From assembly GCA_024653965.1 (NCBI GenBank), contig JANLGW010000143.1, positions 1-49,379 on the forward strand: DNA of 49,379 nt. The letters are read 5' to 3'. Numbering within the stretch: position 1 is the first letter of the stretch; the number at the start of each line of letters is the position of its first letter. The notes below the pieces were generated by a model. That model was not told the origin of the DNA, made no database searches, and worked only from the letters and a program-made list of their open reading frames with translations. The translations under genes and the position numbers were made by a program. This document shows, piece by piece, positions 23,790 to 46,343 of this stretch. This DNA is from Rhodospirillales bacterium (GTDB lineage: Bacteria; Pseudomonadota; Alphaproteobacteria; Rhodospirillales; Magnetovibrionaceae).

Positions 23790-25163
23790 TTAGTGGCTGG
23801 CGCCGTCGAATGCCCGCACGATCAGCGAGGCGTTGGAACCGCCGAAGCCGAACGAGTTGGACATTGCGGCCCGCACCTTGCGCTGTTTTGCGACATGCGG
23901 GACCAAATCGATGGTGCATCCATCGACCGGATGATCGAGGTTCAGGGTGGGCGGAACGATGCCGGTTTTGACCGCCAAAATAGAAAAGATGGTTTCGACC
24001 GCGCCGGACGCACCCATAAGATGGCCGATGGCAGATTTGGTCGACGACATAGATAGTGTGCGTGACGCATCGCTGAAAGCGAGCTTGACCGCATCGAGTT
24101 CGATCGTATCGGCCTTCATCGATGTGCCGTGGGCATTGATGTAGTCGATGTCTTCGGGATTTAAGCGTGCGCGTTTCAGCGCGGCCTGCATACAGCGTAG
24201 CGCGCCGCCCATGTCCAGGCCGGACGTCGCGATGGGGTTGTTGCCACCGGCAAGGCCGTAACCGACAACTTCGGCATAAATGCGCGCGCCGCGCCGTTTG
24301 GCGTGTTCCAGTTCTTCCAACACCACGACGCCTGCGCCTTCACCCATGACAAAACCGTCGCGGTCTTGATCCCAGGGGCGCGAGGCCCGGGTGGGGTCGT
24401 TGTTGCGTTTGGTCGAAAGGGCTTTGGCGGCGGCGAACCCGGCAATGCCGATGCGGCAGCAGGTGGCTTCCGCGCCGCCCGCGATCATCACGTCGGCGTC
24501 GTCTGAAATGATCAGGCGCGCGGCGTCGCCGATGGCGTGCGCGCCGGTGGAACAGGCGGTGACGACGGCGTGATTGGGGCCCATGAAACCGAATTTGATC
24601 GATACCTGACCCGACAACAAATTGATCAGGCTGGCAGGAATAAAAAACGGGCTGACGCGGCGCACGCCGCCTTCTTCGGATTCGGCAAATACCGAACCAC
24701 GGCAAACTTCCGACAAACCGCCGTAACCCGATCCGATAAGAACCCCGGTGCGAAAACGATCCTGGTCGGCTTGGGGCATCCAGCCGCTGTCTTCAACCGC
24801 CTGCTGGGCAGCGGCTAGGCCGTAAACGATGAAGTCGCCCATGCGGCGGCGATCCTTGGGCGAGACGTAATCATCGGGGTTGAACAGGCCGGGGCCTTGG
24901 CCCAGCGGAATCTGCCCCGCGATTTTGACGGGAAGGTCGGAAACGTCAAATCGTTCGATGGCATCGATGCCCGATGAACCGTTGATGAGTTTGTTCCAGG
25001 TCGCTTCGACGCCGTTGGCAAGCGGCGATACCATGCCCAAACCGGTGACCACCACGCGCCGTTGACTGGTGATGGGCACGGGCTGTGCGGTGATGCGCCG
25101 TTCCGTCGGCACGGATAACAGGTCTGGTGGAGAAACCGGAAGATGCGACTGATGCAGCGTCAT
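23790..25163 (-). CDS. fabF: Beta-ketoacyl-ACP synthase II (FabF-like)
   Basis: Condensing enzyme of 457 residues that elongates acyl-ACP with malonyl-ACP. The catalytic triad is in VTACSTGAHAIGDAAR (Cys), YINAHGTSMKADTIE (His) and STKSAIGHLMGASGAVE (Lys/His); the glycine-rich SNSFGFGGSNASLIV closes the fold. The first about 33 residues (MTLHQSHLPVSPPDLLSVPT and beyond) precede the normal N-terminus RRVVVTGLGMVSPLANG and are an extension not usual for housekeeping FabF. No acpP, fabG or fabH lies nearby, so this is a solitary copy, perhaps for a special acyl chain. ATG 25163. Confidence 0.88.
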   Translation of the reverse strand: MTLHQSHLPVSPPDLLSVPTERRITAQPVPITSQRRVVVTGLGMVSPLANGVEATWNKLINGSSGIDAIERFDVSDLPVKIAGQIPLGQGPGLFNPDDYVSPKDRRRMGDFIVYGLAAAQQAVEDSGWMPQADQDRFRTGVLIGSGYGGLSEVCRGSVFAESEEGGVRRVSPFFIPASLINLLSGQVSIKFGFMGPNHAVVTACSTGAHAIGDAARLIISDDADVMIAGGAEATCCRIGIAGFAAAKALSTKRNNDPTRASRPWDQDRDGFVMGEGAGVVVLEELEHAKRRGARIYAEVVGYGLAGGNNPIATSGLDMGGALRCMQAALKRARLNPEDIDYINAHGTSMKADTIELDAVKLAFSDASRTLSMSSTKSAIGHLMGASGAVETIFSILAVKTGIVPPTLNLDHPVDGCTIDLVPHVAKQRKVRAAMSNSFGFGGSNASLIVRAFDGASH

Positions 25164-30327: not shown

Positions 30328-32571
30328 CTAGGCTGTCTTGTCGCCGTCGACAAGCGGCAGGTAAATGGTGACCGTGGTGCCTACCTGCGGTGCGCTGAAA
30401 ATTGTTATTAACCCCTTATATTTTTCCACGATGCTATACGCCGTCGAAAGGCCCAAGCCCTTCCCTTGCCCGACTTCCTTGGTGGTGAAAAACGGATCGA
30501 ACACCCGTTCGAGGGTTTGTGCATCCATGCCTGTGCCGGTGTCCGTGATCGTCAGTTTGCCATAACGTCCGGGATGAAGTTTGGAGGTTAGGCCAGTCTC
30601 TTGCTTGGTAATGTCTGCCGCCGAAATCGAGAAGGTCAATTTCCCGGTTCTGCCCTCAAATGCGTCAACGGCGTTGGAAATGACGTTCATGATGACGGTC
30701 GTGATCTGGCCACGATTGACGGCGACGCGCAACCCGGGCTCGTCTAAGTCTTGTGTCACATCGATGGAACTGGGAACGGACACTAAAACCAGATCCAGCG
30801 CATTGATGATGATATCGCGAAGATCCGCCACCTCTGCCTGATCATCTTCGCCGCTCCTTCTGCTGAAGTCCATGATTTGCTGGACCAGGGCTTTGCCTTC
30901 GGTTGCCGCCTCGACTACTTTTCCCAGGCGCTTATGGGCGCGGCTGTCTTCGGGCAAATCTCTGAGGGTCATTTCCGTCAGCGACAGAATCGGCAGCAAC
31001 AGGTTGTTCATGTTGTGGGCGATGCCGCCGGCGAGATTGCCAAGCGAATCGATTTTTTGCGCATAACGAAGGGCGCGTTCGGTCTCGATGCGTTCGGTGA
31101 CGTCGCGGACAACGGCGATGACGACCTCGCGATGGTTCAGCGTGACGACTTTGGCGCTGACTTCAACGGGAAATGATGTTCCGTCCCGGCATAAGGATCT
31201 TCCTAAAAACACGATACCATCCGATTGGCGCACCCTTTCAATATAAGCATTCCAGGAAAAATCGTCGGGAAATTCCGTCTCGATATCCATGGCGGACATG
31301 CCAAGCAGTTCTTCGTGCGAATAACCCAGCCGCGAACAGGTCGTTTCGTTGATGTCGATGAATAGGCCCGTTTCGGCATTGGCGACAAAAATGAGATCTT
31401 TGGATTGATCGATGGTGCTGCGGAATATTTCCAACCTTTCAAACGCATCGCGGATTTTTGCTTCGGACTCTTTGCGTTGGGTAATGTCGAACGTCACGCC
31501 GGTGCTGCGGACGGGCGTGTGCTGTTCATCATAGAAGGTTTGGCCACGTTCGTTGACCCATTTCACCCGGCCGTCCTTCATCAGCAGGCGGTGCTCAATG
31601 TCGTATGGGGTGCGGTTTTTAACAGAACCTTGATAGGCTTGGTTGACGAACTCCCGGTCATCGGGATGAACCGTTTCGAGGAACGTTTCGTATGTTGCGT
31701 CGACCGTTTCGGGGTCGAAGCCAAAGATGCGACAGTTTTCGTCCGACCAAGTGAGTTTGTTGGTCATCAAATCGAGCGTCCAACTGCCCAAGTGGGCGAT
31801 GCGTTGTGCCTCACGCAGCCGCGCCTCGCTTTCCTGCAAGACTTGTGTGGCGAGCACGCGTTCGGTGACGTCTTCGTAAACACCCAGCAATCCGAGGATA
31901 TTTCCATCGGCTTCGTGCAACGGCACCTTGGAGGTGCGCAGCCAGATGGTCTGTCCATCGGGTGTTGTTTGCGGTTCTACATAACCGAGCTTCGGTTTAT
32001 CTAAATCCATGACCTGCTGGTCATCCGCACGATACAGATCGGCCTGATCGCGCCAGCCCATTTGAAAGTCGTCTTTACCGAGCAGATCTTCAGGCATCGA
32101 CATGCCTGCATCCTGAGCAAACAGGGTATTGCAGCCGAGATAGCGCAATTGCCGGTCTTTCCAAAACACCCGGATGGGGATGTTTTCCACAACAGTACGC
32201 AACAAATTTTGCGATTGGCGAAGGTCCGCCTCCCGGCGGGCGAGTTCTTCGGCCATGCGGTTGAAAGCAGTTTGCAGATCGCCAATTTCCGTATCGCTGG
32301 TTTTTTCGATCCGGGTGGAAAGGTTCCCCGTTCCGATAGAACGAATACTTTTTCCAAGCGCCAACAGGGGGCGGACCACCGTCAAATCGAGCAGCGCGCC
32401 CATGGCCACGATGACCAGGACCACCACGCCCCACATGATCATTAGCGGTACAACTGGGCCATGCAGCATCACCGCGGTACTTAGGCTGACATCGACGGCA
32501 TACCAGCCAATGACTGAAACCAGCAACAGGATGATCGCGAAAATCGCGGCGATTATACGGCGCAGGGACAT
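30328..32571 (-). CDS. Membrane PAS-domain sensor histidine kinase
   Basis: Kinase of 747 residues. It has two membrane helices close together near the N-terminus (about 7-28 and 38-60), so almost no periplasmic part. Then HAMP (about 62-112), three PAS/PAC domains (about 115-235, 245-365, 375-495), HisKA (about 510-580) with the unusual H-box GGIAHNMNNLLLPIL, and HATPase (about 605-745). N-box is VIMNVISNAVDAFEG, G1 DTGTGMDAQ, G2 GKGLGLST. No receiver domain is fused. ATG 32571 starts two bases after the stop of the DUF3068-like gene, behind GAGGAA, so the pair is translationally coupled. The partner regulator may be the converging receiver at 29800. Confidence 0.92.
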   Translation of the reverse strand: MSLRRIIAAIFAIILLLVSVIGWYAVDVSLSTAVMLHGPVVPLMIMWGVVVLVIVAMGALLDLTVVRPLLALGKSIRSIGTGNLSTRIEKTSDTEIGDLQTAFNRMAEELARREADLRQSQNLLRTVVENIPIRVFWKDRQLRYLGCNTLFAQDAGMSMPEDLLGKDDFQMGWRDQADLYRADDQQVMDLDKPKLGYVEPQTTPDGQTIWLRTSKVPLHEADGNILGLLGVYEDVTERVLATQVLQESEARLREAQRIAHLGSWTLDLMTNKLTWSDENCRIFGFDPETVDATYETFLETVHPDDREFVNQAYQGSVKNRTPYDIEHRLLMKDGRVKWVNERGQTFYDEQHTPVRSTGVTFDITQRKESEAKIRDAFERLEIFRSTIDQSKDLIFVANAETGLFIDINETTCSRLGYSHEELLGMSAMDIETEFPDDFSWNAYIERVRQSDGIVFLGRSLCRDGTSFPVEVSAKVVTLNHREVVIAVVRDVTERIETERALRYAQKIDSLGNLAGGIAHNMNNLLLPILSLTEMTLRDLPEDSRAHKRLGKVVEAATEGKALVQQIMDFSRRSGEDDQAEVADLRDIIINALDLVLVSVPSSIDVTQDLDEPGLRVAVNRGQITTVIMNVISNAVDAFEGRTGKLTFSISAADITKQETGLTSKLHPGRYGKLTITDTGTGMDAQTLERVFDPFFTTKEVGQGKGLGLSTAYSIVEKYKGLITIFSAPQVGTTVTIYLPLVDGDKTA

Positions 32572-32572
32572 G

Positions 32573-33403
32573 TCATGTTTCCTCACCGCGCCGGAAACTT
32601 ATGGTCAAAATAATTAACCCGCTGAGCAGCAGTGTGGCTGGAATGATGAGTTCGTATAAATTATGACTTCGTCGGTCGTTTTGGGCGAGGATCGTTTGTT
32701 TGGCGATGGTATCGGGTGAAAACCGCATGTGCCCGACGTCAATCGCTAGGCCATCGAATTTGCCCCCGACGATTTTAACAAACCAATTTTCCGTGTGTTT
32801 AACCACGATTCCGGTGGTGGGCTGGAGCCACAGGCTGCCCCAGTCGCGGGCTTCGATTTTTGTCTCTGGTTCGAGCGCATAGTCATAACCGTCGGTCCAA
32901 TCGAGGCCTGCTGCAGCGTAATCGAAGCGATAGGCTAGGGCGCCTTCGACTTGCTCCGTTCCTTTGAACTCAAACAGGACGCCGCTGTCTGGAAGATAGC
33001 TGAACTGTTTGACCAGGTAATCTTTCTGTTTGAGATGGTGGGGAAAAAAGGCGAGCGCTTCGCTGCCTTCTAATTTTAGGGTGGATGAATGAAACCGGAG
33101 TTGGCTGGTTTTTTCGAACTGGAGTTTGCCAGAGATCACGTCAATGACCCGGGTGGACATTTCCAAACGCTTTATCGGCCCATCCGATCCGATAAGCTGG
33201 GTTTTGTGTTCCTCAATAAAGCGGCTATATATTACCGGTGCAGAGGGGTTGGGTCGGCTTTCGCCCTCGTCTTCATAAATCAGCGTGACAGCGTAATCCT
33301 CATCAGAAAACACCAGCAGCGGCGCAAGAACAAACGCCCACACTGCGCTGAACAGCACGAGCGCCATACCCAAACCAAATATGGGAATATTCAACCGCTT
33401 CAT
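32573..33403 (-). CDS. DUF3068-like membrane-anchored extracytoplasmic protein
   Basis: Protein of 276 residues with a membrane helix at each end: about 8-32 (FGLGMALVLFSAVWAFVLAP) and about 250-270 (LIIPATLLLSGLIILTISFR). The long middle part is beta-rich and probably periplasmic. Segments such as TRVIDVISGKLQFEKTSQLR, AFFPHHLKQKDYLVKQFSYL and TGIVVKHTENWFVKIVGGKF resemble the DUF3068/PorA-like family, as far as can be judged by eye. Immediately upstream of, and coupled to, the PAS kinase gene, so a role in presenting an external signal to that kinase is a reasonable inference. ATG 33403 with GGGGAA upstream. Confidence 0.72.
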   Translation of the reverse strand: MKRLNIPIFGLGMALVLFSAVWAFVLAPLLVFSDEDYAVTLIYEDEGESRPNPSAPVIYSRFIEEHKTQLIGSDGPIKRLEMSTRVIDVISGKLQFEKTSQLRFHSSTLKLEGSEALAFFPHHLKQKDYLVKQFSYLPDSGVLFEFKGTEQVEGALAYRFDYAAAGLDWTDGYDYALEPETKIEARDWGSLWLQPTTGIVVKHTENWFVKIVGGKFDGLAIDVGHMRFSPDTIAKQTILAQNDRRSHNLYELIIPATLLLSGLIILTISFRRGEET

Positions 33404-34645: not shown

Positions 34646-37573
34646 TCATTGGGGGCGACGTGAAAAAACATCCGTGATCGTGGCGGTTAAATCGGCGACA
34701 TTTATGGGTTTTGTCAGATATGCAAGAAAACCCGCCTCTTTTCCCCGTTGGACTTCTCCCGGCATAGCATCGGCGCTGATGGCGAAGACGGGAATTTCGA
34801 GGGTTTTTTCATGGCGACGCAATTCGGCCAATGCTTCATACCCGTTCATGCCGGGCAGGTTGATATCCATCAAAATCAAATCAGGTTTGTCACGGATGGC
34901 GATGGCTATTCCCAATTCGGCGGTGTGTGCGGTTTTCAACCCGATCCCCGTCAAATTAGCGACGATATATTCCATCAAGGCGATGTTGTCCGGGTTGTCT
35001 TCGATGTACAAAATCAGGCCTTTTTTAGAGTCTGTTACGGGTTGCTTCTTGCCTGCCTGAGATGCCTGGGATGGGTTGATTTGGTGGTTGATCGCCAAAG
35101 GAAACGATATCCAAAATGTCGATCCAAAGCCTTCGGTGCTTTCAAATTCCAGGCGTCCACCCATCGCACGAAGCAGGCGTTGGGTGATCGTCAGCCCGAT
35201 GCCGGTTCCTTCAATATTGGAGTTTTCCGCGCCCAAGCGGGAAAACGGCTTAAACAGCTCGGTTTGAAGTTTTTGGGGAATGCCCAGGCCGGTATCGGCA
35301 ATGGCGATACGCTGCATTTTGTCGTCGGTGATGGTGCTGCTGAGGATTACCTTACCGCCCGTGCGATTATATTTTATGGCGTTGGACAGAAGGTTGAGCA
35401 ACACCTGTTTGAAGCGGGTGCGATCGGCTAAGATAGTTGCCCCGATGAAGCCATCGGCCTCAATGCTTACGTCCAACTTATGGGTCAGCGCCTTGGCCGC
35501 AGAAATGCATTCTTCGATTACCTGCCGAGTTTCGACCGGTTCGATGGAGATGTTCATGTGCCCGCTCTCGATCTGCGCTAAATTTAGCACGTCGTTGATC
35601 AGGTCCAGCAAGTGTTTGCCGCCCTTTAAGATTTGATTGACGGCGTTCGTTTGTTTTTCGCTTAACGGCTCTTGCGGATTTAATTCGAGAACTTGAGCGA
35701 AGCCCAAAATCGCATTTAGGGGCGTGCGCAGTTCATGGCTCATGGACGAGAGGAACTGTGATTTGGCCAAGTTCGCCTTCTCGGCGGCCTCTTTTGCCAG
35801 ATACAATTCATGTTCATTTTGTTTTCTTTTGGTGATTTCGGAAAGGGTGCCCGACATACGCAGCGGCTTGTCGTCATCGGACCATTCCACGACCTTGCCA
35901 CGATTATGAACCCAGACCCATTCACCATTTTTGTGGCGCACGCGATATTCATATTCGTAATGATCGGTATCGTCTGAAAAATAGTTTTTCAATAACGTTG
36001 AATAGGCGGCTTGATCATCGGGGTGGACATACCTCAGCATGGTTTGAATATTAATAGGGGCGAGTTCGTTCAGGGTATAACCGATGATTTCCGCCCACCG
36101 GTCATTGAGGATTATTTCACCGGTCTGGACGTTCCATTCCCATGTGCCGATATTCGTGCTCCAAATGATTTCACTCAGTCGTTGGCGTTGCAGCGCCATT
36201 TCCTGTTCGTATTTTTTTTGTTCGGTAATGTCTTCCTTGACAGCAAGATAATTGGAGATATTGCCGTTGAGATCGCGGATGGGCGAAATTCTTGCCAACT
36301 CCCAGAATAAATGACCGTTCTTTTTGCGATTCAGAAATTCCCCTCGCCACGGTTTGCCGGTTGTGATGTCTTTCCATAGCTGCGCATATTCTTCGTCGGG
36401 CGTGTAGCCGGATTTGAGGATGCTTGGTTTGAGTCCATAAACTTCGTTGCGCTCATAACCGGTCAGTGTGGAAAACCATGGATTGACATATTCGATACAG
36501 CCGTTCGTATCGGTGATCATGATGCTTGCGGAGCTTTGTTCTACGGCAAAGAAAAAACGCCGGATCATCATTTCGCGTTGTTGGTCCTTGCGGATGCGGC
36601 CAAAAGAAAATGCCAGGAAAATAATAATGCTGACGGTCAGGGTAAGCCCGGCAAGAGCGATGTTTCGTCGCTCGGCACTCCATGAGGCCAGAACATTCGG
36701 GAAGGAGCGGGACAGACCGAGGTAAATTGGAAAATGGGGAATTTGATATAGGGTGATGAATTCATCGGCCGCGCTTAGGCGCTGTTTTTGTTCCGGACCC
36801 CCGTGACTTTGCATTGATTTAAAATGGGTCAATATTCTGTCGAGGGCTGGGGGCGACGCGGGTTGCTCAGTGAGCTTGACGGGGGGCCAGGCCGTGATGA
36901 CGACACCATCCGCATCAAATAGAACGGCATTTTCGAAACCGCCGAATTCGTCGTCCGCTACAATAGCCTGTATGGTGGACAGATCGGCCAAGAGCCGAAC
37001 AACTCCCAAAAACTCTCCAGTTGCGCCCACCACGCTCCTGCTCAAGCTGATGAGCGGAGTCTCATCCGGTCGGCTTGCGGGTAGAGGCTTAAAGATAAAA
37101 TCGACGTATTGCTCTTTGTGTTTTAAGAAAAATGGTTCCGTTTCAACAGAACGCACGTCAAGTTTTGGGGAATCGTCTCTTGCAATTGCGCGTCCATCGG
37201 CATTGAAAAAATAGAGGTGATGATGCAAATCCTCTCCTCTGAATCGGCGGTTGATGTCATCAAAAAAAACTGAAGAATTTTTACCTTTGAAAAAATCCTC
37301 AACGTGGGCGCTTGTCAGGGTGTCATTTAGGTCGTGGATCAATTCGTTCAGATTTGAATTAATTTTATCGCCCAAGGCTCTTGCTTGGTATTGGAGCGTG
37401 ATTTCGGCCACGTCTAGGGCCGCACGACGCGATTGCCATAAACTCCATCCCAGAGCGCTGACAATGATGCCCAAAATAGCGACGGACAGGAACATGCTGA
37501 AAACGTAGGGACGACCTACATCCGAGGATTTGATGTCCTTCCAACTTAGCTTTTCGTTATTGGGCGGTTCCAT
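34646..37573 (-). CDS. Hybrid sensor histidine kinase with dCache-like sensor, two PAS and receiver
   Basis: Membrane kinase of 975 residues. TM1 is about 25-47, a large periplasmic region follows (about 48-300, dCache-like with LHHHLYFFNADGRAIA and AVLFDADGVVITAWP), TM2 about 305-328. Then two PAS/PAC domains (about 345-465, 470-590), HisKA with FLSSMSHELRTPLNAILGFA, HATPase (QVLLNLLSNAIKYNR, IADTGLGIP, GTGIGLTITQRL) and a C-terminal receiver (LYIEDNPDN, LILMDINLPGMNGYEAL, FAISADAM, YLTKPI). No Hpt is fused. ATG 37573 overlaps the end of the DctP-like gene by 17 bases; GTG 37582 is an alternative. The overlap ties the kinase to the binding protein. Confidence 0.93.
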   Translation of the reverse strand: MEPPNNEKLSWKDIKSSDVGRPYVFSMFLSVAILGIIVSALGWSLWQSRRAALDVAEITLQYQARALGDKINSNLNELIHDLNDTLTSAHVEDFFKGKNSSVFFDDINRRFRGEDLHHHLYFFNADGRAIARDDSPKLDVRSVETEPFFLKHKEQYVDFIFKPLPASRPDETPLISLSRSVVGATGEFLGVVRLLADLSTIQAIVADDEFGGFENAVLFDADGVVITAWPPVKLTEQPASPPALDRILTHFKSMQSHGGPEQKQRLSAADEFITLYQIPHFPIYLGLSRSFPNVLASWSAERRNIALAGLTLTVSIIIFLAFSFGRIRKDQQREMMIRRFFFAVEQSSASIMITDTNGCIEYVNPWFSTLTGYERNEVYGLKPSILKSGYTPDEEYAQLWKDITTGKPWRGEFLNRKKNGHLFWELARISPIRDLNGNISNYLAVKEDITEQKKYEQEMALQRQRLSEIIWSTNIGTWEWNVQTGEIILNDRWAEIIGYTLNELAPINIQTMLRYVHPDDQAAYSTLLKNYFSDDTDHYEYEYRVRHKNGEWVWVHNRGKVVEWSDDDKPLRMSGTLSEITKRKQNEHELYLAKEAAEKANLAKSQFLSSMSHELRTPLNAILGFAQVLELNPQEPLSEKQTNAVNQILKGGKHLLDLINDVLNLAQIESGHMNISIEPVETRQVIEECISAAKALTHKLDVSIEADGFIGATILADRTRFKQVLLNLLSNAIKYNRTGGKVILSSTITDDKMQRIAIADTGLGIPQKLQTELFKPFSRLGAENSNIEGTGIGLTITQRLLRAMGGRLEFESTEGFGSTFWISFPLAINHQINPSQASQAGKKQPVTDSKKGLILYIEDNPDNIALMEYIVANLTGIGLKTAHTAELGIAIAIRDKPDLILMDINLPGMNGYEALAELRRHEKTLEIPVFAISADAMPGEVQRGKEAGFLAYLTKPINVADLTATITDVFSRRPQ

Positions 37574-38597
37574 CTTTCTCACTCAATTTAGACATCACGG
37601 CGGTTGCGAGTTCCGGATTGATCCCCATCTTCTCGATCAAGCCCGGCTGTTTGGAAATCATCTGCTCTCTCCACCGCGCAAGTTCATCGGAGGAAGGGAC
37701 GACAATTTGCACGCCATTGTCCTTTAGTGTTTGAGACGCCTCTTTCTGCGCCTCTGCGGCCATTAATCGGCCTTCATCGACAACGCTTTCCCATGTTTCG
37801 GAAATGATCTGCTGTGTTTCAGGAGACAGCCGCGTCCAGAATTTTTCAGACATGAGCGGCACATATTGCGGGAAGTATTCTTTGTCTTCGAATGCGTAAC
37901 GAATGCCCCGTTCCCATAACCGGGCGCTCACGACGGTCGCATGCGTCGTTAAAACGCCGTCAACGGTTCCGTGATCCAAAGCTTGCGGCAAATCGGGCCA
38001 TGGAATGATTCTTGGAATTGCCCCCAGGGCTTCAAGGCGTAGTCCGTTGGCTTCCCCTCCCGGCGAGCGGATTTGCATGCCGGAGATGTCTTCATGGCGG
38101 TTGATTTTATGCTTCACGCCATATAAATGCGCAAAGCCGAGATCAATCCACCGTCCCAGAACTTTGACCTTCAGCGTTTCGGCTATTTTGAGATTGATCG
38201 CCTGACCGATTTCGCCATCGTGAAGCTCATAGTTGACGTCGGCTTCCCGACCGTAAAACATCGGAAGCAGAAAAATTCCTATATTGGGCTCATAACGGTC
38301 AAGTTGCCAGGTTCCGGGGACGGCCATTTCGACTTTCCCTTCGCCAATGGCGTCAACCACATTGCTGTCGCGAAACAGGCGGGCACTGTGATGGAGTTCC
38401 ACACGGAGTGAATCTTTCAATTTTTCAGCCAGACGGTCCGCGAACAATTGCACCACGCGCGTCTGGACGTGTTCGGCGCTGTTTTCCGTTGAAATTCTCA
38501 GCAGCGGTAAATTTTCCGCGGGCAACGCATCCGGCGCGATGAATGCCGCCATTAAAATGATCACCCAAAATTTTATGATTTTGATTTTCTTGAACAC
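37557..38597 (-). CDS. DctP/TAXI-type TRAP periplasmic binding protein, orphan
   Basis: Periplasmic solute-binding protein of 346 residues. A signal peptide at 1-26 (FKKIKIIKFWVIILMAAFIA) ends near PAEN. DctP features are LRISTENSAEHVQTRVVQLF at the mature start, VVDAIGEGKVEMAVPGTWQL in the first lobe, and the signature DISGMQIRSPGGEANGLRLE around the conserved Arg of the carboxylate-binding site. DLPQALDHGTVDGVLTTHAT follows. No DctQ or DctM membrane genes lie nearby; instead the gene overlaps a hybrid kinase gene. It is therefore likely a sensory rather than a transport subunit. GTG 38597, with GGGAGA upstream. Confidence 0.88.
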   Translation of the reverse strand: MFKKIKIIKFWVIILMAAFIAPDALPAENLPLLRISTENSAEHVQTRVVQLFADRLAEKLKDSLRVELHHSARLFRDSNVVDAIGEGKVEMAVPGTWQLDRYEPNIGIFLLPMFYGREADVNYELHDGEIGQAINLKIAETLKVKVLGRWIDLGFAHLYGVKHKINRHEDISGMQIRSPGGEANGLRLEALGAIPRIIPWPDLPQALDHGTVDGVLTTHATVVSARLWERGIRYAFEDKEYFPQYVPLMSEKFWTRLSPETQQIISETWESVVDEGRLMAAEAQKEASQTLKDNGVQIVVPSSDELARWREQMISKQPGLIEKMGINPELATAVMSKLSEKDGTAQ

Positions 38598-38925: not shown

Positions 38926-39222
38926 ATGATCACTGCGGCTCAGTTGCGCGCGGCGCGGGCGCTTCTTGGGATAGACCAAAAAACCCTGGCCGGATTGGCG
39001 GGCGTTTCGGTTCCGACGATTCAGCGCATGGAAGCGAGTCAGGGTAATGTGCGTGGCGTGGTCGACAGCCTGATCAAGGTCGTTGACGCGCTCAACGGCG
39101 CGGGTGTCGAGTTGGTCGCCGATGGCTCGATCAGCGGTCCGGCGGGGTGCGGCGTGCGTCTTAAATCAACGGCGGAACAGAACGCTTCGTCTGAGGGGGA
39201 GGGTGGTCGTGTTGGCGGTTGA
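38926..39222 (+). CDS. XRE-family helix-turn-helix regulator
   Basis: Small DNA-binding protein of 98 residues. The helix-turn-helix covers about residues 1-45: ITAAQLRAARALLGIDQKTL, then AGLAGVSVPTIQRMEAS with the recognition helix VSVPTIQRMEA. The rest is short (VVDSLIKVVDALNGAGVELV). ATG 38926 with AAGGAA six bases before. Its stop lies inside the start of the HyfB-like gene (overlap about 14 bases), so it is translationally coupled to the operon and is likely its own regulator. Signal unknown. Confidence 0.85.
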   Translation: MITAAQLRAARALLGIDQKTLAGLAGVSVPTIQRMEASQGNVRGVVDSLIKVVDALNGAGVELVADGSISGPAGCGVRLKSTAEQNASSEGEGGRVGG

Positions 39223-41221
39223 TTTAGCGATCCTTTGCGTCGGGCTTTTTTTGGCCTTGGCGCTCGCCGCCATCGTCGCAAGCGGCAAGCCTGCCGCATC
39301 GACCTTCATTTATGTAGCCGCCATTGTTCCTTGCGGGCTTGTCGGCATCATCGGACTGACGGTGCTGCTCGGCGGCGTCGAGGTATCCAAAGCCGTATTG
39401 CCGATCGGCCTTCCCTGGCTTGGCGCACATTTTCGGCTTGATGCTCTTTCGGCTTTCTTTCTGTTCATCATCGGCTTAGGCGGCGCCATCACCAGCCTGT
39501 ATGCGATCGGGTATGGCCGCCACGAGCATGAACCGCATCGGGTGCTGCCATTCTATCCCGCATTTTTGGGCGCGATGGTGTTGGTCGTTTTGGCCGATGA
39601 CGCCTTTAGCTTTCTGCTGTCGTGGGAGGTCATGTCGCTTTTATCGTGGGCGCTGGTCTTGGCGCATCACCGCAAGGCGGGCACGCAAAAGGCCGCTTAC
39701 GTCTATTTGGTGATGGCCGGATTTGGCACCATGTCACTGCTGTTGGCGTTTGGTCTGCTGGTCGGCGGCGAAGGCGGGTACGATTTTGAAACAATCCGCG
39801 CAGGCGTGCGCTCCCCCGTTGCGGCGGCGATCATCTTGAGCCTGATGCTGCTGGGCGCCGGATCGAAGGCGGGGCTTGCGCCTTTGCACGTGTGGTTGCC
39901 TTTGGCGCATCCCGCAGCGCCCAGTCATGTCTCGGCATTGATGAGCGGCGTCATGACCAAGGTCGCGCTTTATGGGTTCATTCGCGTGGTTTTCGATTTG
40001 CTCGGTCCGCTGGAGTGGTGGATGAGTCCAGTGGTCATCTTGCTGGGCGCGGCGACGGCGGTGCTCGGCATCTTCAATGCGATGATGGAAAACGACATCA
40101 AACGCGCGCTGGCTTATAGTACGATCGAAAACATCGGCGTGATCTTTGCCGCGCTCGGGTTGGCGTTGGCCTTTCGCGCCAACGGCATGGTGGCCGAGGC
40201 GGCGCTGGCGTTCACCGCCGCCCTCTTTCATATTTTTAACCACATGATCTTTAAAAGCCTACTGTTCATGGGTGCCGGTTCGGTTCTGAATGCGACCGGA
40301 TTGCGTGATCTTGATGGCCTTGGGGGGCTGATCCACCGTATGCCGGTGACGGGCTTGCTGGTTTTAATCGGCGTCACGGCGATTTCCGCGTTGCCGCCGC
40401 TGAATGGCTTTGCTTCGGAATGGTTGATCTTCCAGTCCATTCTGACCAGCCCGAATTTGCCCCAGTCCGGCTTGCAGATCATCGTTCCCGCAACTGGCGC
40501 TTTATTGGCGCTTGCCGCCGCCCTTGCTGCGGCCTGTTTCGTGAGGCTCTATGGGGTTGGTTTTTTAGGCCGACCGCGCAGCGATGCCGCGCGCGATGCG
40601 CTCGAGGTGGATCGGTTCTCGTTGGGCGCGATGATCATCCTGGCTGCGATTTGCGTGCTTGCGGGCGTTTTCCCCGGCATCTTTCTGGATGCCTTTGCGC
40701 CCGCGGTTACGTTGATGCTTGACGGGCGGGTGCCGATGCAGGCCGATCAACCCTGGCTGACGCTGGTGCCTATGGCTGAATCGCGCAGCACCTATAACGG
40801 TCTTTTGGTTCTTGTTTTTGTCGCGTTTTCGGCGATTGTCTCAGCCTGGGCGGTTCACCGCTTCGCTTCCCGCCGTGTGCGCCGCAGTCCTGCTTGGGAT
40901 TGCGGATTTCCCAATGCCGATCCGTTAACGCAATATGGCGCGGGCAGTTTTGCCCAGCCCGTGCGGCGGGTGCTCGGCACGATCTTGTTGCGTGCGCGTG
41001 AAGAAGTTTTGATGCCGCCGCCCGGTGATATGAGCCCCGCGCGTCATACGGTGCATGTCAAAGACCTGATCTGGGATGGCATCTACGCGCAAATCAGTTG
41101 GGCGATCAATACCGTCGCCACACGGATGAACCGGCTGCAATTCCTCACCATTCGCCGGTATCTGAGTTTAGTGATGATGTCGCTGGTTTTACTGTTGTTG
41201 GCGTTGACGATATGGAACTGA
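39209..41221 (+). CDS. hyfB: Hydrogenase-4 subunit B-like (Mrp-antiporter-like) membrane subunit
   Basis: Integral membrane protein of about 670 residues, related to HyfB/HycC and NuoL/NuoN, the proton-translocating antiporter-like subunits. Motifs include FLLSWEVMSLLSWALVLAHH, the GAGSKAGLAPLHVWLPLAHP segment with AAPSHVSALMSG (channel Lys and His), NDIKRALAYSTIENIGVIFA and HIFNHMIFKSLLFMGAGSVL. The start is GTG 39209, five to six bases behind GAGGGGGAGGG; the long open frame before it is out-of-frame XRE sequence. First structural gene of the six-gene cluster. Confidence 0.9.
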   Translation: MLAVDLAILCVGLFLALALAAIVASGKPAASTFIYVAAIVPCGLVGIIGLTVLLGGVEVSKAVLPIGLPWLGAHFRLDALSAFFLFIIGLGGAITSLYAIGYGRHEHEPHRVLPFYPAFLGAMVLVVLADDAFSFLLSWEVMSLLSWALVLAHHRKAGTQKAAYVYLVMAGFGTMSLLLAFGLLVGGEGGYDFETIRAGVRSPVAAAIILSLMLLGAGSKAGLAPLHVWLPLAHPAAPSHVSALMSGVMTKVALYGFIRVVFDLLGPLEWWMSPVVILLGAATAVLGIFNAMMENDIKRALAYSTIENIGVIFAALGLALAFRANGMVAEAALAFTAALFHIFNHMIFKSLLFMGAGSVLNATGLRDLDGLGGLIHRMPVTGLLVLIGVTAISALPPLNGFASEWLIFQSILTSPNLPQSGLQIIVPATGALLALAAALAAACFVRLYGVGFLGRPRSDAARDALEVDRFSLGAMIILAAICVLAGVFPGIFLDAFAPAVTLMLDGRVPMQADQPWLTLVPMAESRSTYNGLLVLVFVAFSAIVSAWAVHRFASRRVRRSPAWDCGFPNADPLTQYGAGSFAQPVRRVLGTILLRAREEVLMPPPGDMSPARHTVHVKDLIWDGIYAQISWAINTVATRMNRLQFLTIRRYLSLVMMSLVLLLLALTIWN

Positions 41222-42168
41222 TCGCGAACTTTTTTATTCAGGGTGTTCAGATGGCGCTGGTGGTGGCGTTGGCGCCGCTGTTGGTGGGGCTTGTGCGCAA
41301 GGTCAAGGCGCGGCTGAACCGTAGGCAGGGTGCGTCCTTGATTCAGCCCTACCGAGATATTTTGCGCCTCATGCGTAAAGATGTGGTGCTGGCGGAAAAT
41401 GCGTCATGGCTCTTTCGCGCTGCGCCCTACATGGTGTTTGCCGCCACTTGGGTGGCGGCGGCTCTGGTTCCGACCTTTGCCATGGGGCTGCAATTTAGCT
41501 GGACTGCCGATATGATCGCGATCGTCGCCCTGTTGGGCAGTGCGCGGTTTTTTCTTGCGTTGGCGGGCATGGACGTGGGCACCAGCTTTGGCGGCATTGG
41601 ATCCAGTCGTGAGATGATGATCGCCACCATGGCGGAACCGGCGATGCTGTTGACGGTTTTTTCGGTGGCCCTGGTTGCGGGGTCCACCCAGTTATCGACC
41701 GTATCTGCGGTGATGACCTCGCCCGAAGTTGGGTTGAGGGTATCGCTCGGTTTAGGTCTGGTTGCCCTGGTGATTGTGGCCATCGCCGAAAATGCGCGCA
41801 TTCCCGTCGATAACCCGGCGACCCACTTAGAACTGACCATGGTGCATGAAGCGATGGTGCTGGAATATTCGGGGCGGCACTTAGCGATGATCGAGATCGC
41901 GTCCGCGCTGAAGCTCTTGCTTTATGTCTCGCTGATCGCCTGCATCTTCTTTCCCTGGGGCATCGCGGAACGCGCTGATAGTTTGTCGAGCTATGCATTT
42001 GGCATGATCGTTTATGTTGGCAAGCTGGCCGTCGGCGGTGTGCTGTTGGCCTTTTTTGAGACGTCGGTCGCCAAGATGCGGGTGTTTCGAGTTCCCGATT
42101 TCCTTGGCGCGGCGCTGATGCTGGGCTTGCTCGGCACCTTGCTGTTGTTTGTGTCTAGGAGTTTGTGA
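41212..42168 (+). CDS. hyfC: Hydrogenase-4 subunit C-like (NuoH-like) membrane subunit
   Basis: Membrane subunit of 318 residues, related to HyfC/HycD and NuoH, the arm that connects the soluble part to the proton path. Segments are RRQGASLIQPYRDILRLMRK at the cytoplasmic entry and LEYSGRHLAMIEIASALKLL near the interface. AIAENARIPVDNPATHLELT, then TMVHEAMVLEYSG, gives the conserved acidic loop (E-x-x-R-x-P-x-D-x-P). ATG 41212 overlaps the previous stop by ten bases. Confidence 0.93.
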   Translation: MELIANFFIQGVQMALVVALAPLLVGLVRKVKARLNRRQGASLIQPYRDILRLMRKDVVLAENASWLFRAAPYMVFAATWVAAALVPTFAMGLQFSWTADMIAIVALLGSARFFLALAGMDVGTSFGGIGSSREMMIATMAEPAMLLTVFSVALVAGSTQLSTVSAVMTSPEVGLRVSLGLGLVALVIVAIAENARIPVDNPATHLELTMVHEAMVLEYSGRHLAMIEIASALKLLLYVSLIACIFFPWGIAERADSLSSYAFGMIVYVGKLAVGGVLLAFFETSVAKMRVFRVPDFLGAALMLGLLGTLLLFVSRSL

Positions 42169-42181
42169 TGGGGAGTCTGTG

Positions 42182-42844
42182 ATGGATCGGCTCGCATTCG
42201 ACATGGCGCATCTGCTGGCCGGCGGGTTGGTGTTGGTCAGCTTCATGATGATCTATCAAGATCGGCTCTATGCGCTGTTGAACGTCTTTGCCTTGCATGC
42301 GGTGGTGCTGTCGATGTCGGTTGCCTGGCAGGCCTGGATTCAAGATGCGCCGCATCTTTATATCACCGCCGGCATCGCGCTGGTTTTTAAGGCGCTTATC
42401 ATTCCGGGCGCGTTGCATCGCATTATTCAGCGTTTAGGCATTCACCGCGAGGTCGAAAATGTCGTGGGCGTGGGGCCGACCATGCTGGCGGGTATGGGGC
42501 TGGTGTCTTTGTCTATCGTTTTGATGCTGCGTCTGACCGAAGTGGCCGATGCCTTCGCTCGTGAAGACTTGGCCTTTTCACTTTCGGTGTTGCTGCTGGG
42601 GCTTTTAATGATGATCACCCGACGTAATGCCGTCAGTCAGGTGGTCGGTTTTATGTCGCTGGAAAACGGCTTGATCTTAGCCGCGACCGGCGCCAAGGGC
42701 ATGCCGCTGGTGGTCGAGATCAGCGTGGCTTTTTCGGTCCTGATCGCCTTCATCGTGATCGGCGTATTTCTGTTTCGCATTCGCGAGCGGTTTGACAGCG
42801 TGGATATCAGCGCGCTTGACGATTTCCGGGGCGACAAAAAATGA
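42182..42844 (+). CDS. hyfE: Hydrogenase-4 subunit E-like (NuoK-related) membrane subunit
   Basis: Membrane protein of 220 residues with about six to seven helices. It resembles HyfE, which carries a NuoK-like half with SVLLLGLLMMITRRNAVSQV and GFMSLENGLILAATGAKGMP (conserved Glu in SLENG). GGGGAG lies six bases before ATG 42182; earlier codons in frame are part of the preceding gene's end. The stop overlaps the hyfF start (ATGA). Confidence 0.9.
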   Translation: MDRLAFDMAHLLAGGLVLVSFMMIYQDRLYALLNVFALHAVVLSMSVAWQAWIQDAPHLYITAGIALVFKALIIPGALHRIIQRLGIHREVENVVGVGPTMLAGMGLVSLSIVLMLRLTEVADAFAREDLAFSLSVLLLGLLMMITRRNAVSQVVGFMSLENGLILAATGAKGMPLVVEISVAFSVLIAFIVIGVFLFRIRERFDSVDISALDDFRGDKK

Positions 42845-44292
42845 CAAGTCTGCTGTTCAATCCGGTTTATGGCGTCATCGCGATCCCGATCATCGCCGCA
42901 GCGTTGCTTGCGGCGTTGCCTGGATATCGTCTGACGGCGCAGTTGAACGTGCTGGCAAGCCTGTTGACCTTTGTGTTTGCGCTGTTTTTGTTTTTTGTCG
43001 GGCGCGCAGCACCTAGTCCTTACCTCTTGATCGATGATCTCAACATCGTCTTCATCGTGCTCAATACATTCGTCGGCTTTACCGCCGCGACGTTTTCCGC
43101 CAGTTATATCGGTCACGAGATCGAGACTGGGCGATTGACGCCGGTCAATGTGCGTTTTTATCACTCCATGTATCAGATCATGATGTTCGGTATGAATCTG
43201 GCGTTGGTATCGAACAATATCGGCCTGATGTGGGTGGCGATCGAACTCGCCACATTGACGACGGTGCTGATGGTCGGCATTTACCGCACGCACGAAGCGC
43301 TGGAGGCGGCGTGGAAATATTTCATCCTCGGCAGCGTCGGCATCGCGCTGGCCCTGTTCGGCACCATCTTGGTCTATGTCGCCGCCCAGCCGGTTTTAGG
43401 CGAGGGCGAGATGGCGATGATCTGGACCAACCTTGTTGCGCACGCGAGCGAGTTTGATGCCTCGATGCTGAACCTGGCTTTCGTTTTTCTGCTGCTCGGT
43501 TACGGCACGAAGGTCGGGTTGGCGCCGTTGCATGCGTGGTTGCCCGATGCCCACGCCGAAGGCCCGACGCCTATTTCAGCCGTGCTGTCCGGGCTTTTGC
43601 TCAACGTGGCGCTCTATGCCGTGTTGCGCTTTAAGATGTTGATGGCGGCGCATCCCGAGGCGCTGGCCCCAGGACCGCTGATGATAACGATGGGGCTTTT
43701 GTCGCTGATTTTCGCCAGCTTCATGCTCTATCGGCGGCGCGATATTAAACGCTTGTTTGCCTATTCTTCGATCGAACATATGGGCATCATCGTGTTTGCT
43801 TTCGGTATGGGCGGGCCGTTGGCCAATTTCGCCGGACTGTTGCACATGGTCATGCACAGCCTGACAAAATCGGCCATTTTCTATTCCGTCGGCCATGTGG
43901 CGCAGATCAAAGGTACGCAGCGGATCGCCGATATTCGCGGCCTGACCCAAAGCCATCCCGTGTTGGGGTGGGGGCTGGCGATTGGCGTTTTGGCGATTGC
44001 GGGCATGCCGCCGTTCGGTTTGTTCATGAGCGAGTTTCTGATCGTCACGACGACTTTCGCCAAATCGCCTATCTTGGCGCTGCTGCTGGTGTTTGGAATC
44101 TTGGTGGCCTTCGGTGCGCTGTTGATGCGCTTAAGCGGATTTATTTTTGGCGAACCCACGGGGGCGGTGAAACCGGCCGAGGCATCTTTTGTGCCGCTTT
44201 ATACGCACATGGCGCTGGTGTTAATGGCCGGTATTTATCTGCCGGGGCCGATGGTCGTGTGGTTCCAATCCGTCGCACGGCTTTTGGGATGA
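42841..44292 (+). CDS. hyfF: Hydrogenase-4 subunit F-like (Mrp-antiporter-like) membrane subunit
   Basis: Second antiporter-like subunit, 483 residues. Motifs are GLMWVAIELATLTTVLMVGI (conserved Glu), then YRTHEALEAAWKYFILGSVG with GTKVGLAPLHAWLPDAHAEG and PTPISAVLSGLLLNVALYAV (proton-channel Lys/His). RRDIKRLFAYSSIEHMGIIV and HMVMHSLTKSAIFYSVGHVA follow. It starts inside the hyfE stop. Together with HyfB it would give the complex two ion-translocating modules. Confidence 0.93.
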   Translation: MTSLLFNPVYGVIAIPIIAAALLAALPGYRLTAQLNVLASLLTFVFALFLFFVGRAAPSPYLLIDDLNIVFIVLNTFVGFTAATFSASYIGHEIETGRLTPVNVRFYHSMYQIMMFGMNLALVSNNIGLMWVAIELATLTTVLMVGIYRTHEALEAAWKYFILGSVGIALALFGTILVYVAAQPVLGEGEMAMIWTNLVAHASEFDASMLNLAFVFLLLGYGTKVGLAPLHAWLPDAHAEGPTPISAVLSGLLLNVALYAVLRFKMLMAAHPEALAPGPLMITMGLLSLIFASFMLYRRRDIKRLFAYSSIEHMGIIVFAFGMGGPLANFAGLLHMVMHSLTKSAIFYSVGHVAQIKGTQRIADIRGLTQSHPVLGWGLAIGVLAIAGMPPFGLFMSEFLIVTTTFAKSPILALLLVFGILVAFGALLMRLSGFIFGEPTGAVKPAEASFVPLYTHMALVLMAGIYLPGPMVVWFQSVARLLG

Positions 44293-44303
44293 GGGAGGAC
44301 GCG

Positions 44304-45815
44304 ATGCCGGAGACCCGTAGAATGATCGCACTTGCTTCACCCGCGTTTCGTGGGCATCCGATGCCTCGCACTTCGGTAACAAAGGCCGAGTGGGAACAAG
44401 CATCTAAGGATTTGAGCCATGGTGAATTGTCGCTGCTCAGCTTGTGGGCCAGCGATGGCGCCGTACACATGGCGCTGCTGAACGAAGAAAGCAAACACAT
44501 CGGCATTTTAAGTCTGGAAAACTGCACCAACACTTTTCCTTCGGTTGGCCGCTGGCATGCTTCGGCGCAACGGTTGGAGCGCGCCATTCAAGATCTTTTC
44601 GGTTTATCGCCAGAGGGTGCAGAGGATATCAGGCCGTGGCTCGATCACGGCCAATGGGGGCTTTCCCAGCCGATGAACGCGAACGGCGCAGCCCGCGAGG
44701 TCCCGCCTTATTCCTTTTTGCCCGTCGAGGGTGAAAGCCTGCATCAGGTGCCAGTCGGCCCGGTTCACGCCGGCATCATCGAGCCCGGCCATTTTCGCTT
44801 CACCGCGCAAGGCGAGACGGTGGTTAGACTCGAAGAACGGCTGGGCTACGTGCATAAGGGCATTGATCGGCTGATGCAGGGTGCAACGTTGAGCCGCGGT
44901 GCCGAGCTTGCCGGACGAATTTCGGGCGATAGTACGGTCGCCTATTCCTGGGCCTTTGCCCAGGCTGCCGAATCCGCGCTTGGCGTTACGGTGCCTGCAC
45001 GCGCGGTGTGGCTGCGCGCTTTGATGGTCGAGATGGAGCGGTTGGCGAACCATCTGGGCGATATCGGCGCGGTCTGCAACGATGCGGCCTTTGCGCTGAT
45101 GCTGGCCCATTGCGGCATTCTTCGTGAACGGATTTTGCGTGTGGCGGATGTTTGTTTCGGCCATCGCATGATGCAGGGTCGGATCGTGCCGGGCGGCGTG
45201 ACGCATGATTTGAGCGCCGAAGGTAAAGACCAACTGGTTGAGGTGCTGGGTTATGTCCGGGGGCGGTTTTCGCCGCTGGTTGATTTGTACGAAAACACCG
45301 CATCGTTAAAGAACCGCACGTTCGGTACTGGCTTTCTTAATCCTAAGCTGGCGCTTGGCTTTGCGGCGGGTGGTTTTGTCGGCCGGGCATCGGGGCGCAA
45401 CTTCGATGCCCGCCGCGACGTCAGTTATGCGCCGTATGATGTCTTAAGCTTTGAGGTGCCGGTGTTGAAGTCGGGTGATGTGAATGCGCGGGTTTGGGTG
45501 CGCATTCAAGAAGTCTATCAGAGCCTTTCGCTGATCGAGCAATGTCTGGGGCGTCTTCCCACTGGGCCTATTTTGACCGAAATCGCGCCGCTGGGCGAAG
45601 CACGCGAAGGGCTTGGCCTAGTCGAAGGTTTTCGCGGCGACATCTTCGTGTGGCTGGCGCTTGATGCCAAGGGGCAGATTTCGCGCTGTCATCTGCGCGA
45701 TCCGTCTTGGTTTCAGTGGCCGTTGTTGGAAGCGGTGATTGAAAACAACATCATCGCCGATTTTCCGCTGTGCAATAAATCCTTCAATTGTTCCTATTCC
45801 GGGCATGATCTTTAA
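44304..45815 (+). CDS. HyfG/NuoCD-like large subunit lacking Ni-binding cysteines (Ehr type)
   Basis: Soluble large subunit of 503 residues. Residues about 1-150 resemble the NuoC part, the rest the NuoD/HyfG part (VVRLEERLGYVHKGIDRLMQ, LMVEMERLANHLGDIGAVCN, GGFVGRASGRNFDARRDVSY). The first CxxC site is replaced: AGRISGDSTVAYSW has Ser207 and Ser210 where group-4 hydrogenases have Cys, and four residues are missing after it. The C-terminus FPLCNKSFNCSYSGHDL has Cys-x5-Cys instead of DPCxxCxxR, and no C-terminal processing tail. So the Ni-Fe site cannot form as in hydrogenases. ATG 44304 with GAGGGAGGA; ATG 44289 overlaps hyfF and is less likely. Confidence 0.92.
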   Translation: MPETRRMIALASPAFRGHPMPRTSVTKAEWEQASKDLSHGELSLLSLWASDGAVHMALLNEESKHIGILSLENCTNTFPSVGRWHASAQRLERAIQDLFGLSPEGAEDIRPWLDHGQWGLSQPMNANGAAREVPPYSFLPVEGESLHQVPVGPVHAGIIEPGHFRFTAQGETVVRLEERLGYVHKGIDRLMQGATLSRGAELAGRISGDSTVAYSWAFAQAAESALGVTVPARAVWLRALMVEMERLANHLGDIGAVCNDAAFALMLAHCGILRERILRVADVCFGHRMMQGRIVPGGVTHDLSAEGKDQLVEVLGYVRGRFSPLVDLYENTASLKNRTFGTGFLNPKLALGFAAGGFVGRASGRNFDARRDVSYAPYDVLSFEVPVLKSGDVNARVWVRIQEVYQSLSLIEQCLGRLPTGPILTEIAPLGEAREGLGLVEGFRGDIFVWLALDAKGQISRCHLRDPSWFQWPLLEAVIENNIIADFPLCNKSFNCSYSGHDL

Positions 45816-45827
45816 GGAGTGAGAGCC

Positions 45828-46343
45828 ATGCGCAGATTATTTCTTGAAGGCTTGTTCCGCCGCCCTTTGACCGAGCCTGCTCCCGAAGCGAGCGCCGAGA
45901 TCGAGGCGCTTGGGCGCGCCGTTCAACAGGCCATGAAGCAGCGGCTGGGGCGCAGTTTGTCCATCCGGCAGGTCGATGCCGGGTCGTGCAATGGCTGCGA
46001 GTTGGAAATTAACGCCCTCAATAATGCCTATTATGATCTCGAACGCTTTGGCCTGCATTTTGTCGCTTCGCCCCGGCACGCCGATGTGTTGCTGGTCACG
46101 GGCCCGGTCACTAAAAACATGGCCGAAGCGTTGCAGCGGACCTATAACGCCACGCCGGACCCAAAATGGGTTTTAGGCGTGGGCGATTGCGCTAAGGGCG
46201 GCGGTTGTTTTGCCGGAAGCTACGCGATTGCCGGGGGCGTCGAGGCGATCATACCGGTCGATCTTCATATCGCAGGTTGCCCGCCGAACCCGCTCGCCTT
46301 GCTCAAGGGGCTGCTGGCCGTTTTGCAAAGCGCGGATGCCTAG
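45828..46343 (+). CDS. hyfI: HyfI/NuoB-like iron-sulfur small subunit
   Basis: Small subunit of 171 residues related to HyfI/HycG and NuoB. Cluster cysteines are kept: Cys54 and Cys57 in DAGSCNGCELEINALNN, Cys121 and Cys127 in VGVGDCAKGGGCFAGSYA, and Cys151 in HIAGCPPNPLALLKGLL; four of these can hold an N2-type [4Fe-4S] cluster. AAGGAG lies eight bases before ATG 45828; an in-frame GTG at 45819 is weaker. Last gene of the operon; its end overlaps the converging XRE gene by four bases. No NuoI/HyfH ferredoxin-like subunit follows. Confidence 0.92.
   Translation: MRRLFLEGLFRRPLTEPAPEASAEIEALGRAVQQAMKQRLGRSLSIRQVDAGSCNGCELEINALNNAYYDLERFGLHFVASPRHADVLLVTGPVTKNMAEALQRTYNATPDPKWVLGVGDCAKGGGCFAGSYAIAGGVEAIIPVDLHIAGCPPNPLALLKGLLAVLQSADA

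Follow-up and report, generated by a model that had tools for sequence, protein, structure and literature searches.

Energy-converting-hydrogenase-related (Ehr) complexes, reportedly described by Marreiros et al. in 2013 with the genes ehrABCDLS, comprise six types of subunit, and their large subunit has no nickel ligands. Published clusters of this kind are also called hyfBCEFGI, as in Cupriavidus, Acidithiobacillus and Nitrospira. In the passages available from these papers, the six-gene cluster of C. metallidurans and H16 is judged incomplete and unlikely to serve lithotrophic growth (PMC2864759), that of At. ferrooxidans is given as a non-hydrogenase (PMC7735108), and the complexes of Nitrospira (PMC10284858), Sulfobacillus (PMC4378227), Margulisbacteria (PMC6349859), Methylacidiphilum (PMC6688271) and M. 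tuberculosis (PMC6728331) are of unknown or suspected function. An excerpt on Geobacter proteomics reports that Ehr subunits were detected, at a higher abundance on formate than under conditions with hydrogen, which its authors see as a possible tie to H2 production from formate (PMC7894505). Here we analyze an operon at 38926-46343 of contig JANLGW010000143.1 (49,379 nt, the whole of which we call the window) from a Rhodospirillales bacterium (Magnetovibrionaceae; GCA_024653965.1). Gene content, loss of the Ni ligands, phylogeny and the literature all support the assignment, already proposed in an earlier note on this DNA, to Ehr, and the operon is almost certainly an Ehr complex of the standard six-gene hyfBCEFGI type. 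It is thus well formed and belongs to a known, widespread family without an established function, and the literature passages agree with the earlier note that no substrate has been established for Ehr.

The large subunit, HyfG, no longer has the ligands of a Ni-Fe site. Its best solved relative is HycE of formate hydrogenlyase (FHL; 7z0s_E, E 1.3e-59 by phmmer), and in this alignment, repeated with MAFFT, SGDS falls letter over letter on CGIC, gap-free through the motif and onward, the sole local difference being one residue before the motif. At the other end of the protein, HycE S-L-D-P-C-Y-S-C-T-D-R lies over HyfG S-F-N-C-S-Y-S-G-H-D-L (residues 493-503), placing S497 and G500 in the columns of C531 and C534, and N495 in that of D529. 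As judged by alignment, all four Ni-Fe cysteines are lost, with Ser, Ser, Ser and Gly in their places. Counted from the start codon at 44304, Ser207 and Ser210 stand in the columns of the N-terminal pair of Ni cysteines in HycE and E. coli HyfG, which bears out the two serine replacements given in the earlier note, and the alignment that it proposed, carried out here against HyfG, HycE and NuoD, upholds the ligand loss. The same alignment overturns two of its details: the four residues said to be missing after SGDS are not missing, since the HycE alignment runs gap-free there, and the reading of DPCxxCxxR as FPLCNKSFNC was out of register, the matching stretch being FNCSYSGHDL.

This loss does not have a trivial explanation. 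HyfG has eight cysteines and no CxxC anywhere, so no Ni ligands have moved elsewhere in the protein, and no second large subunit gene was found in the operon, the Ni-Fe type large subunits of this genome sitting on other contigs. A sequencing error at 44910-44935 is ruled out because the same serines are kept in an alignment of all 142 Ehr large-subunit rows, which includes the window protein and leaves out two outliers, L092 and L159 (Ser207 in 138 rows, Ser210 in 133). Cys490 and Cys496 are, on the alignment, not displaced Ni ligands. As a candidate for a new metal site the pair was rejected: it is fixed in 88/88 rows, but several distant Ehr members have Ile/Leu and other residues instead, and the two cysteines are therefore not essential to Ehr. 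Finally, HyfG ends at the column of HycE Arg537, beyond which HycE and HyfG of E. coli extend. We take Arg537 to be the site after which a hydrogenase large subunit is processed, so that HyfG would have no C-terminal extension and would need no protease.

Where the earlier note saw an empty redox pocket, the site in fact holds near-invariant polar and charged residues (S207, D209, S210, N249, E160, R444, K492, N495, S497) and a proton path. The proton-path residues of HycE are named in the FHL paper, the available part of which calls the canopy residue Asp529 strictly conserved (PMC9474812). E193 corresponds to HyfG E160 (141/142), and H284, R395, E437 and the canopy residue R478 correspond to H250, R361, E403 and R444, each in 142/142. 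Asp529, by contrast, has become Asn495 in 141/142 Ehr rows, whereas hydrogenases and NuoD have Asp; HycE Ser283 is replaced by Asn249 in 140/142 and HycE Gly526 by Lys492 in 141/142. Every one of the 142 rows combines an acid at 209 with a base at 492 (140 D/K, one D/R, one E/K), and the pair is absent from these columns in L092, L159, the true hydrogenases and NuoD. The pattern extends to 13 more distant Ehr proteins (35-44% identity), in which D and K are found in 13/13, N495 and N249 each in 12/13, and all five proton-path residues in 13/13. That a different residue set has been fixed across Ehr shows the HyfG site to be under selection and not simply vacated; the pocket is refitted rather than empty. 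We found no description of this D/K/N signature in the open-access literature, and nothing there on NKSFN together with hydrogenase.

A structure model of HyfG (49-row alignment; predicted local distance difference test (pLDDT) 78.8, predicted template modeling score (pTM) 0.85, pLDDT below 50 at residues 140-184 and 480-503) matches FHL HycE 7z0s_E with Z 38.4 and the 49-kDa chains of complex I with Z 35-37. A joint HyfG-HyfI chain, obtained by reading through the HyfG stop, gave a poor model (pLDDT 64.8) that was not used.

The small subunit, HyfI, has the five cysteines that the earlier note listed (54, 57, 121, 127, 151). Four of them, C54, C57, C121 and C151, correspond to the cluster ligands in HycG and NuoB and are present in 80, 79, 78 and 79 of 81 rows. 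Their motif has the CxxC spacing of hydrogenases, whereas complex I has adjacent cysteines. HyfI thus keeps one hydrogenase-type four-cysteine ligand set, for a predicted [4Fe-4S] cluster.

In the membrane arm, the acidic and lysine residues that we take, from what is known of complex I, to be those of pumping and of the E-channel are kept without exception: E140, K220, K251 and K349 of HyfB in 73/73, E135, K224 and K343 of HyfF in 83/83, E142, D200, E207, E213 and E218 of HyfC in 76/76, and E161 and E179 of HyfE in 77/77. The position of HyfB K220 is Leu in E. coli HycC.

The gene set expected of Ehr is complete, with two antiporter-like subunits, a NuoH-like anchor, a HyfE-like subunit, a large subunit and a small subunit. 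A scan of species genomes yielded 551 coding relatives, of which 80 were kept (loci L004-L083), and comparison of operon composition among them, as the earlier note had suggested, recovered the same six-gene set wherever the contig reaches far enough. In a quick tree of 52 rows, built without the pocket columns and with SH-aLRT (approximate likelihood ratio) support but no bootstrap, 42 Ehr-labelled rows lie on one side of a branch with support of 99, with E. coli HyfG/HycE as their neighbors (94) and NuoD separate from them; L157-L159 and L092 are on long branches, and their placement is unsure. The sole cluster in the tree that has been named in print is hyfBCEFGI of C. metallidurans (L156), Geobacter EhrL having been left out; this copy groups with the window protein and has SGDS and NKSFN in common with it.

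An Ehr large subunit was found in 24/289 sampled Alphaproteobacteria genomes (E <=1e-80), and 70/397 genomes of a phylum sample gave a match at E <=1e-40. About 55 of these 70 are full Ehr-like matches (E <=1e-95), classed by E value from the match table and not all by residues; the others are 1 fragment, 11 HycE/HyfG-like proteins (31-33% identity, the match ending at residue 500, both of the two that were read carrying CGIC and DPC) and 3 of another type. Among 60 genomes from genus to order, 8 (own included) carry the complex at E <=1e-150, and it was found in 0/4 other genus genomes and 0/13 family genomes, some of which are incomplete. Since it is carried by few near relatives, the distribution of Ehr is patchy.

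Other large subunits were encountered in the same searches. Two proteins (L167, L168; genomes G080, G190) represent a second non-hydrogenase type, with 26-28% identity, ISRINAVDS or ISRINALDS at the CGIC site and a GVDL end; they retain R361 and E403 but have other residues at the positions of E160, H250 and R444. Genomes from the genus, family and order of this bacterium also encode a NuoD-like paralogue (L095-L098, L101) with RICVPEPDFN and HTYPPEIER in place of the Ni/quinone motifs, which seems to be a further relative of complex I. Contig 12 of genome G701 encodes two divergent Ehr large subunits (L169 and L152, at 23606-24874 and 31215-32744), about 6 kb apart on opposite strands.

Nickel maturation was compared between 24 Alphaproteobacteria genomes with the operon and 54 without it, the latter taken in list order from 265 negatives. 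HypD is present in 7/24 and 3/54, respectively. Since it was not detected in 17 of the 24 operon genomes, all at least 90% complete by estimate, Ehr seems to need neither a Ni-Fe cofactor nor its maturation. The genome of the window has HypD on contig 55 and four large-subunit genes of Ni-Fe type, two of them on contig 55 and one each on contigs 121 and 3; the three that were read each have a DPCxxCxxH motif. This genome can therefore probably make true hydrogenases apart from the Ehr operon. Within the operon, the open reading frame (ORF) list and searches with Pfam and NF profiles found no HyfA, HyfD, HyfH or maturation gene, as the earlier note had stated, and thus no ferredoxin-type relay subunit; HyfA was not searched for beyond the operon. 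NuoI exceeds its cut-off once in 22/24 operon genomes and never twice, although HyfH-like genes below the cut-off are possible, and a HyfH query against the window's own genome returned NuoI (E 2e-17) and six weak matches (E 1.6e-5 or worse) to which no identity was assigned.

The explanation that we favor, and to which we give an even chance, is that Ehr is a redox-driven ion pump that is fed by a soluble donor and performs proton-coupled chemistry in the rebuilt pocket. The route that we propose, from a carrier via HyfI, the pocket and HyfC to HyfF and HyfB, is a little less secure. Given that no HyfA/HyfH/NuoI-type relay subunit is encoded alongside, a soluble low-potential carrier (e.g. 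ferredoxin or flavodoxin) might dock directly on HyfI. The electron would then arrive at the rebuilt pocket, where either a small acceptor would take it up together with protons or the D209/K492 pair would balance it, and the resulting change in charge would run via the E-channel residues of HyfC to HyfF and HyfB, moving protons or sodium; the reaction may also run in reverse. We further suggest, tentatively and with doubts that outweigh our confidence, that the former Ni-Fe site has become a new metal-free site, in which the D209-K492 pair, Asn495 and serines in place of ligands, served by the old proton path and adjacent to the one [4Fe-4S] cluster, would link the arrival of an electron directly to charge movement in the pumps. 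If so, Ehr would be a minimal redox-driven pump or redox-gated antiporter and would show complex I-type coupling without a quinone.

Several points weigh against the explanation that we favor. A single cluster without a relay is unusual in the complex I/hydrogenase superfamily, and our analysis of sequence and literature pinpointed neither donor nor acceptor for Ehr. The 142 rows come mostly from near-related Alphaproteobacteria, and their counts are not independent events. That D209 and K492 are close in space is unproven, because both pocket loops were modeled with pLDDT below 50 and the HyfG-HyfI model is poor. The gene order is not fixed either: HyfI is not beside HyfG in three loci, lying upstream of HyfB on the opposite strand in G206 and G286 (L187, L188) and being absent from the HyfG contig in G035, where a 66% identical copy is on another contig, although the gene set holds in all three.

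Two other readings were considered. In a complex I-like scheme, a quinone in the former Ni-Fe pocket would take the electrons of the donor and pumping would proceed as in complex I, with which HyfG shares its fold, the E-channel and pump residues and the proton-path His, Glu and Arg. However, the columns of His38 and Tyr87, the quinone-headgroup residues of T. thermophilus Nqo4 according to the available part of PMC7684303, hold I159 and G208 in HyfG (ungapped alignment stretch, offset 121). The hydrogenase CxxC of HyfI and the lack of a NuoI-type relay in the operon likewise argue against this scheme, which we consider unlikely. Among the functions that the earlier note had offered, a canonical quinone link is weakened by the sequence, and ion pumping gains support from the conserved residues. 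It is similarly improbable that Ehr is a non-redox or redox-gated cation/proton antiporter for pH or sodium homeostasis, whose cluster would sense redox state and whose D209-K492 pair would plug the metal site. The fixed pump residues, the lack of a relay subunit and of a recurrent partner gene at the locus, and an acid/base pair seen in every Ehr row and in none of the hydrogenases, NuoD or the two outliers would all suit such a role, and in the excerpt of a genome paper ehrABCDLS is listed with genes that may serve pH homeostasis (PMC6688271). Yet the proton path kept from the pocket suggests proton-coupled chemistry there, and the D209-K492 ion pair on which the plug depends is itself unproven in space.

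The remaining explanations fare worse than the pump. FHL-like H2 production with formate dehydrogenase (FDH), or energy gain from CO with carbon monoxide dehydrogenase (CODH), has been proposed, in the passages available, for vent Epsilonproteobacteria (PMC3958643) and Nitrospira (PMC5596200), and the formate-linked abundance in Geobacter and the suggestion of its authors point the same way. FDH (TIGR01591 over cut-off) is found in 16/24 operon genomes and 26/54 without the operon, but the cut-off was reached neither in 8/24, at least 3 of which have partial matches that may reflect cut contigs, nor in the window's own genome. The aerobic CODH subunit CoxL (TIGR02416 over cut-off) occurs in 1/24 and 3/54; anaerobic Ni-CODH was not searched for. 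As obligate partners of Ehr, FDH and aerobic CODH are therefore not supported by genome co-occurrence, and with the Ni ligands gone and HypD undetected in most operon genomes we regard such a role as highly improbable. A working precedent for chemistry without a Ni-Fe site is the membrane-bound sulfane-sulfur reductase (MBS), a complex I relative that has also lost the Ni ligands; a similar enzyme would reduce its substrate at an incompletely coordinated proximal cluster (PMC7684303, in part). According to the same passages, the motif of MbsJ is shorter by three residues, which leaves it with three cluster cysteines, whereas HyfI keeps four and a full-length CxxC motif, and E160, which lies over MbhL Glu21 in the alignment and is present in 141/142 rows, is reported absent from MbsL; on this loop of MbsL, however, a passage of the FHL paper points out one acidic residue (PMC9474812). 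We consider this role very unlikely. Least probable of all is a hydrogenase-4 operon decaying into a pseudogene. The Ni ligands and several Hyf subunits are indeed missing by comparison with E. coli, but the frames are open, relatives have the same gene set, the replacements are almost invariant across 142 rows and the proteins form one well-supported tree group; decay is thus refuted by conservation.

The coordinates are collected in the table. The ORFs and family searches bear out that HyfB, C, E, F, G and I follow one another at 39209-46343, as the earlier note had given, and its six hyf genes stand; it overlooked the XRE gene (38926-39222) in front of them, with which the operon comprises seven closely spaced plus-strand genes. 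XRE and HyfB overlap by 14 nt, HyfB beginning with GTG at 39209 and XRE ending with its stop at 39222. AGGGAGGA precedes the HyfG start at 44304, and AAGGAG the HyfI start at 45828. The HyfI start is in the frame of HyfG in 45/80 loci and often follows the final sense codon of HyfG by 12-15 nt, counting the stop, as it does in the window.

Table. Features of the Ehr operon in the window (fractions of 142 refer to rows of the Ehr large-subunit alignment)
Feature	Position	Strand	Evidence or conservation
XRE-family helix-turn-helix regulator, 98 aa, first gene of the operon	38926..39222	+	Pfam HTH_31/HTH_3
HyfB-like antiporter subunit (EhrA type), 670 aa, GTG start	39209..41221	+	NF005086 hydrogenase 4 subunit B, 825 bits (cut-off 667)
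HyfC/NuoH-like membrane anchor, 318 aa	41212..42168	+	PF00146, E 1.1e-38
HyfE-like small membrane subunit, 220 aa	42182..42844	+	NF008556, 81.7 bits, below cut-off 136; no Pfam match
HyfF-like antiporter subunit, 483 aa	42841..44292	+	NF005043 hydrogenase 4 subunit F, 869 bits (cut-off 533)
HyfG/NuoCD-like large subunit (EhrL type), 503 aa, without Ni-Fe ligands	44304..45815	+	Complex1_49kDa and Complex1_30kDa
HyfG Glu160 codon, equivalent of the proton donor HycE Glu193	44781..44783	+	141/142
HyfG S207-G-D-S210, where hydrogenases have CGIC	44922..44933	+	S207 138/142, G208 141/142, D209 141/142, S210 133/142
HyfG C-terminal signature ADFPLCNKSFNCSYSGHDL, residues 485-503	45756..45812	+	K492 141/142, N495 141/142, S497 137/142, G500 142/142
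HyfI/NuoB-like small subunit (EhrS type), one predicted [4Fe-4S] site (C54-x2-C57, C121, C151)	45828..46343	+	Oxidored_q6, E 6.1e-31

An XRE homologue is directly upstream of HyfB on the same strand in 72/84 tested loci (70/75 from the genome scan, 2/9 on plasmids), five further loci being untestable. Among the misses, L008, L014 and L019 come from cut contigs, where what had matched as HyfB was really HyfF, and L010 and L036 are real; the gene is also lacking in the Azospirillum plasmid locus L155 and in the six plasmid loci from outside the Alphaproteobacteria. In R. johnstonii and Methylovirgula, the annotation has a helix-turn-helix regulator at this upstream position. When the loci were clustered by their flanking ORFs of at least 100 aa, no recurrent partner enzyme emerged. 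Besides XRE and an antisense ORF over it, the commonest flanking family is an ABC-transporter ATPase-like one (26 loci, both strands, about 3.4 kb off), and a gene annotated DUF4365 in R. johnstonii recurs at 12/80 scan loci. On the Methylovirgula plasmid pHY1 (L154) the Ehr operon adjoins an F-type ATP synthase operon, whose gene order we take to recall that of N-ATPases. Ahead of the operon in the window, the minus strand at 34646-38597 encodes a putative large hybrid sensor kinase and a putative TRAP-type periplasmic binding protein, both named from their sequence.

Many records label Ehr large subunits as hydrogenase or NADH-quinone oxidoreductase subunits, and the Ehr residue set offers a simple test against naming such proteins H2 producers. 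Within this set, D209, K492, N495 and E160 are the residues that bear on whether the pocket is catalytic. More broadly, a complex I relative of six subunits that worked with neither quinone ligands nor metal would have implications for the way in which redox chemistry is coupled to ion pumping across the superfamily. By comparison with other Ehr, most alphaproteobacterial loci add the XRE regulator, and their clade has C490 and C496, which are not general to Ehr. Hyf and Hyc of E. coli share with the window operon the counterparts of HyfB, C, E, F, G and I, the proton-path residues and the CxxC cluster motif. In contrast to them, the operon lacks HyfA, HyfD, HyfH, the Ni ligands and the C-terminal extension, and its HyfG has Asn for the canopy Asp529 and the new D209 and K492. 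With complex I (NuoB, C, D, H, L, M, N) it shares the fold and the energy-coupling residues, but it has no NADH module and no NuoI, the quinone His/Tyr are not conserved and the cluster motif is of the hydrogenase type. MBS of P. furiosus is likewise a complex I relative without a Ni-Fe site and, in the passages available, has a three-cysteine proximal cluster, the relay subunit MbsN and an Mrp-type sodium module (PMC7684303). HyfI differs in its four cysteines, and counterparts of MbsN or of the small Mrp subunits were not seen among the six genes.

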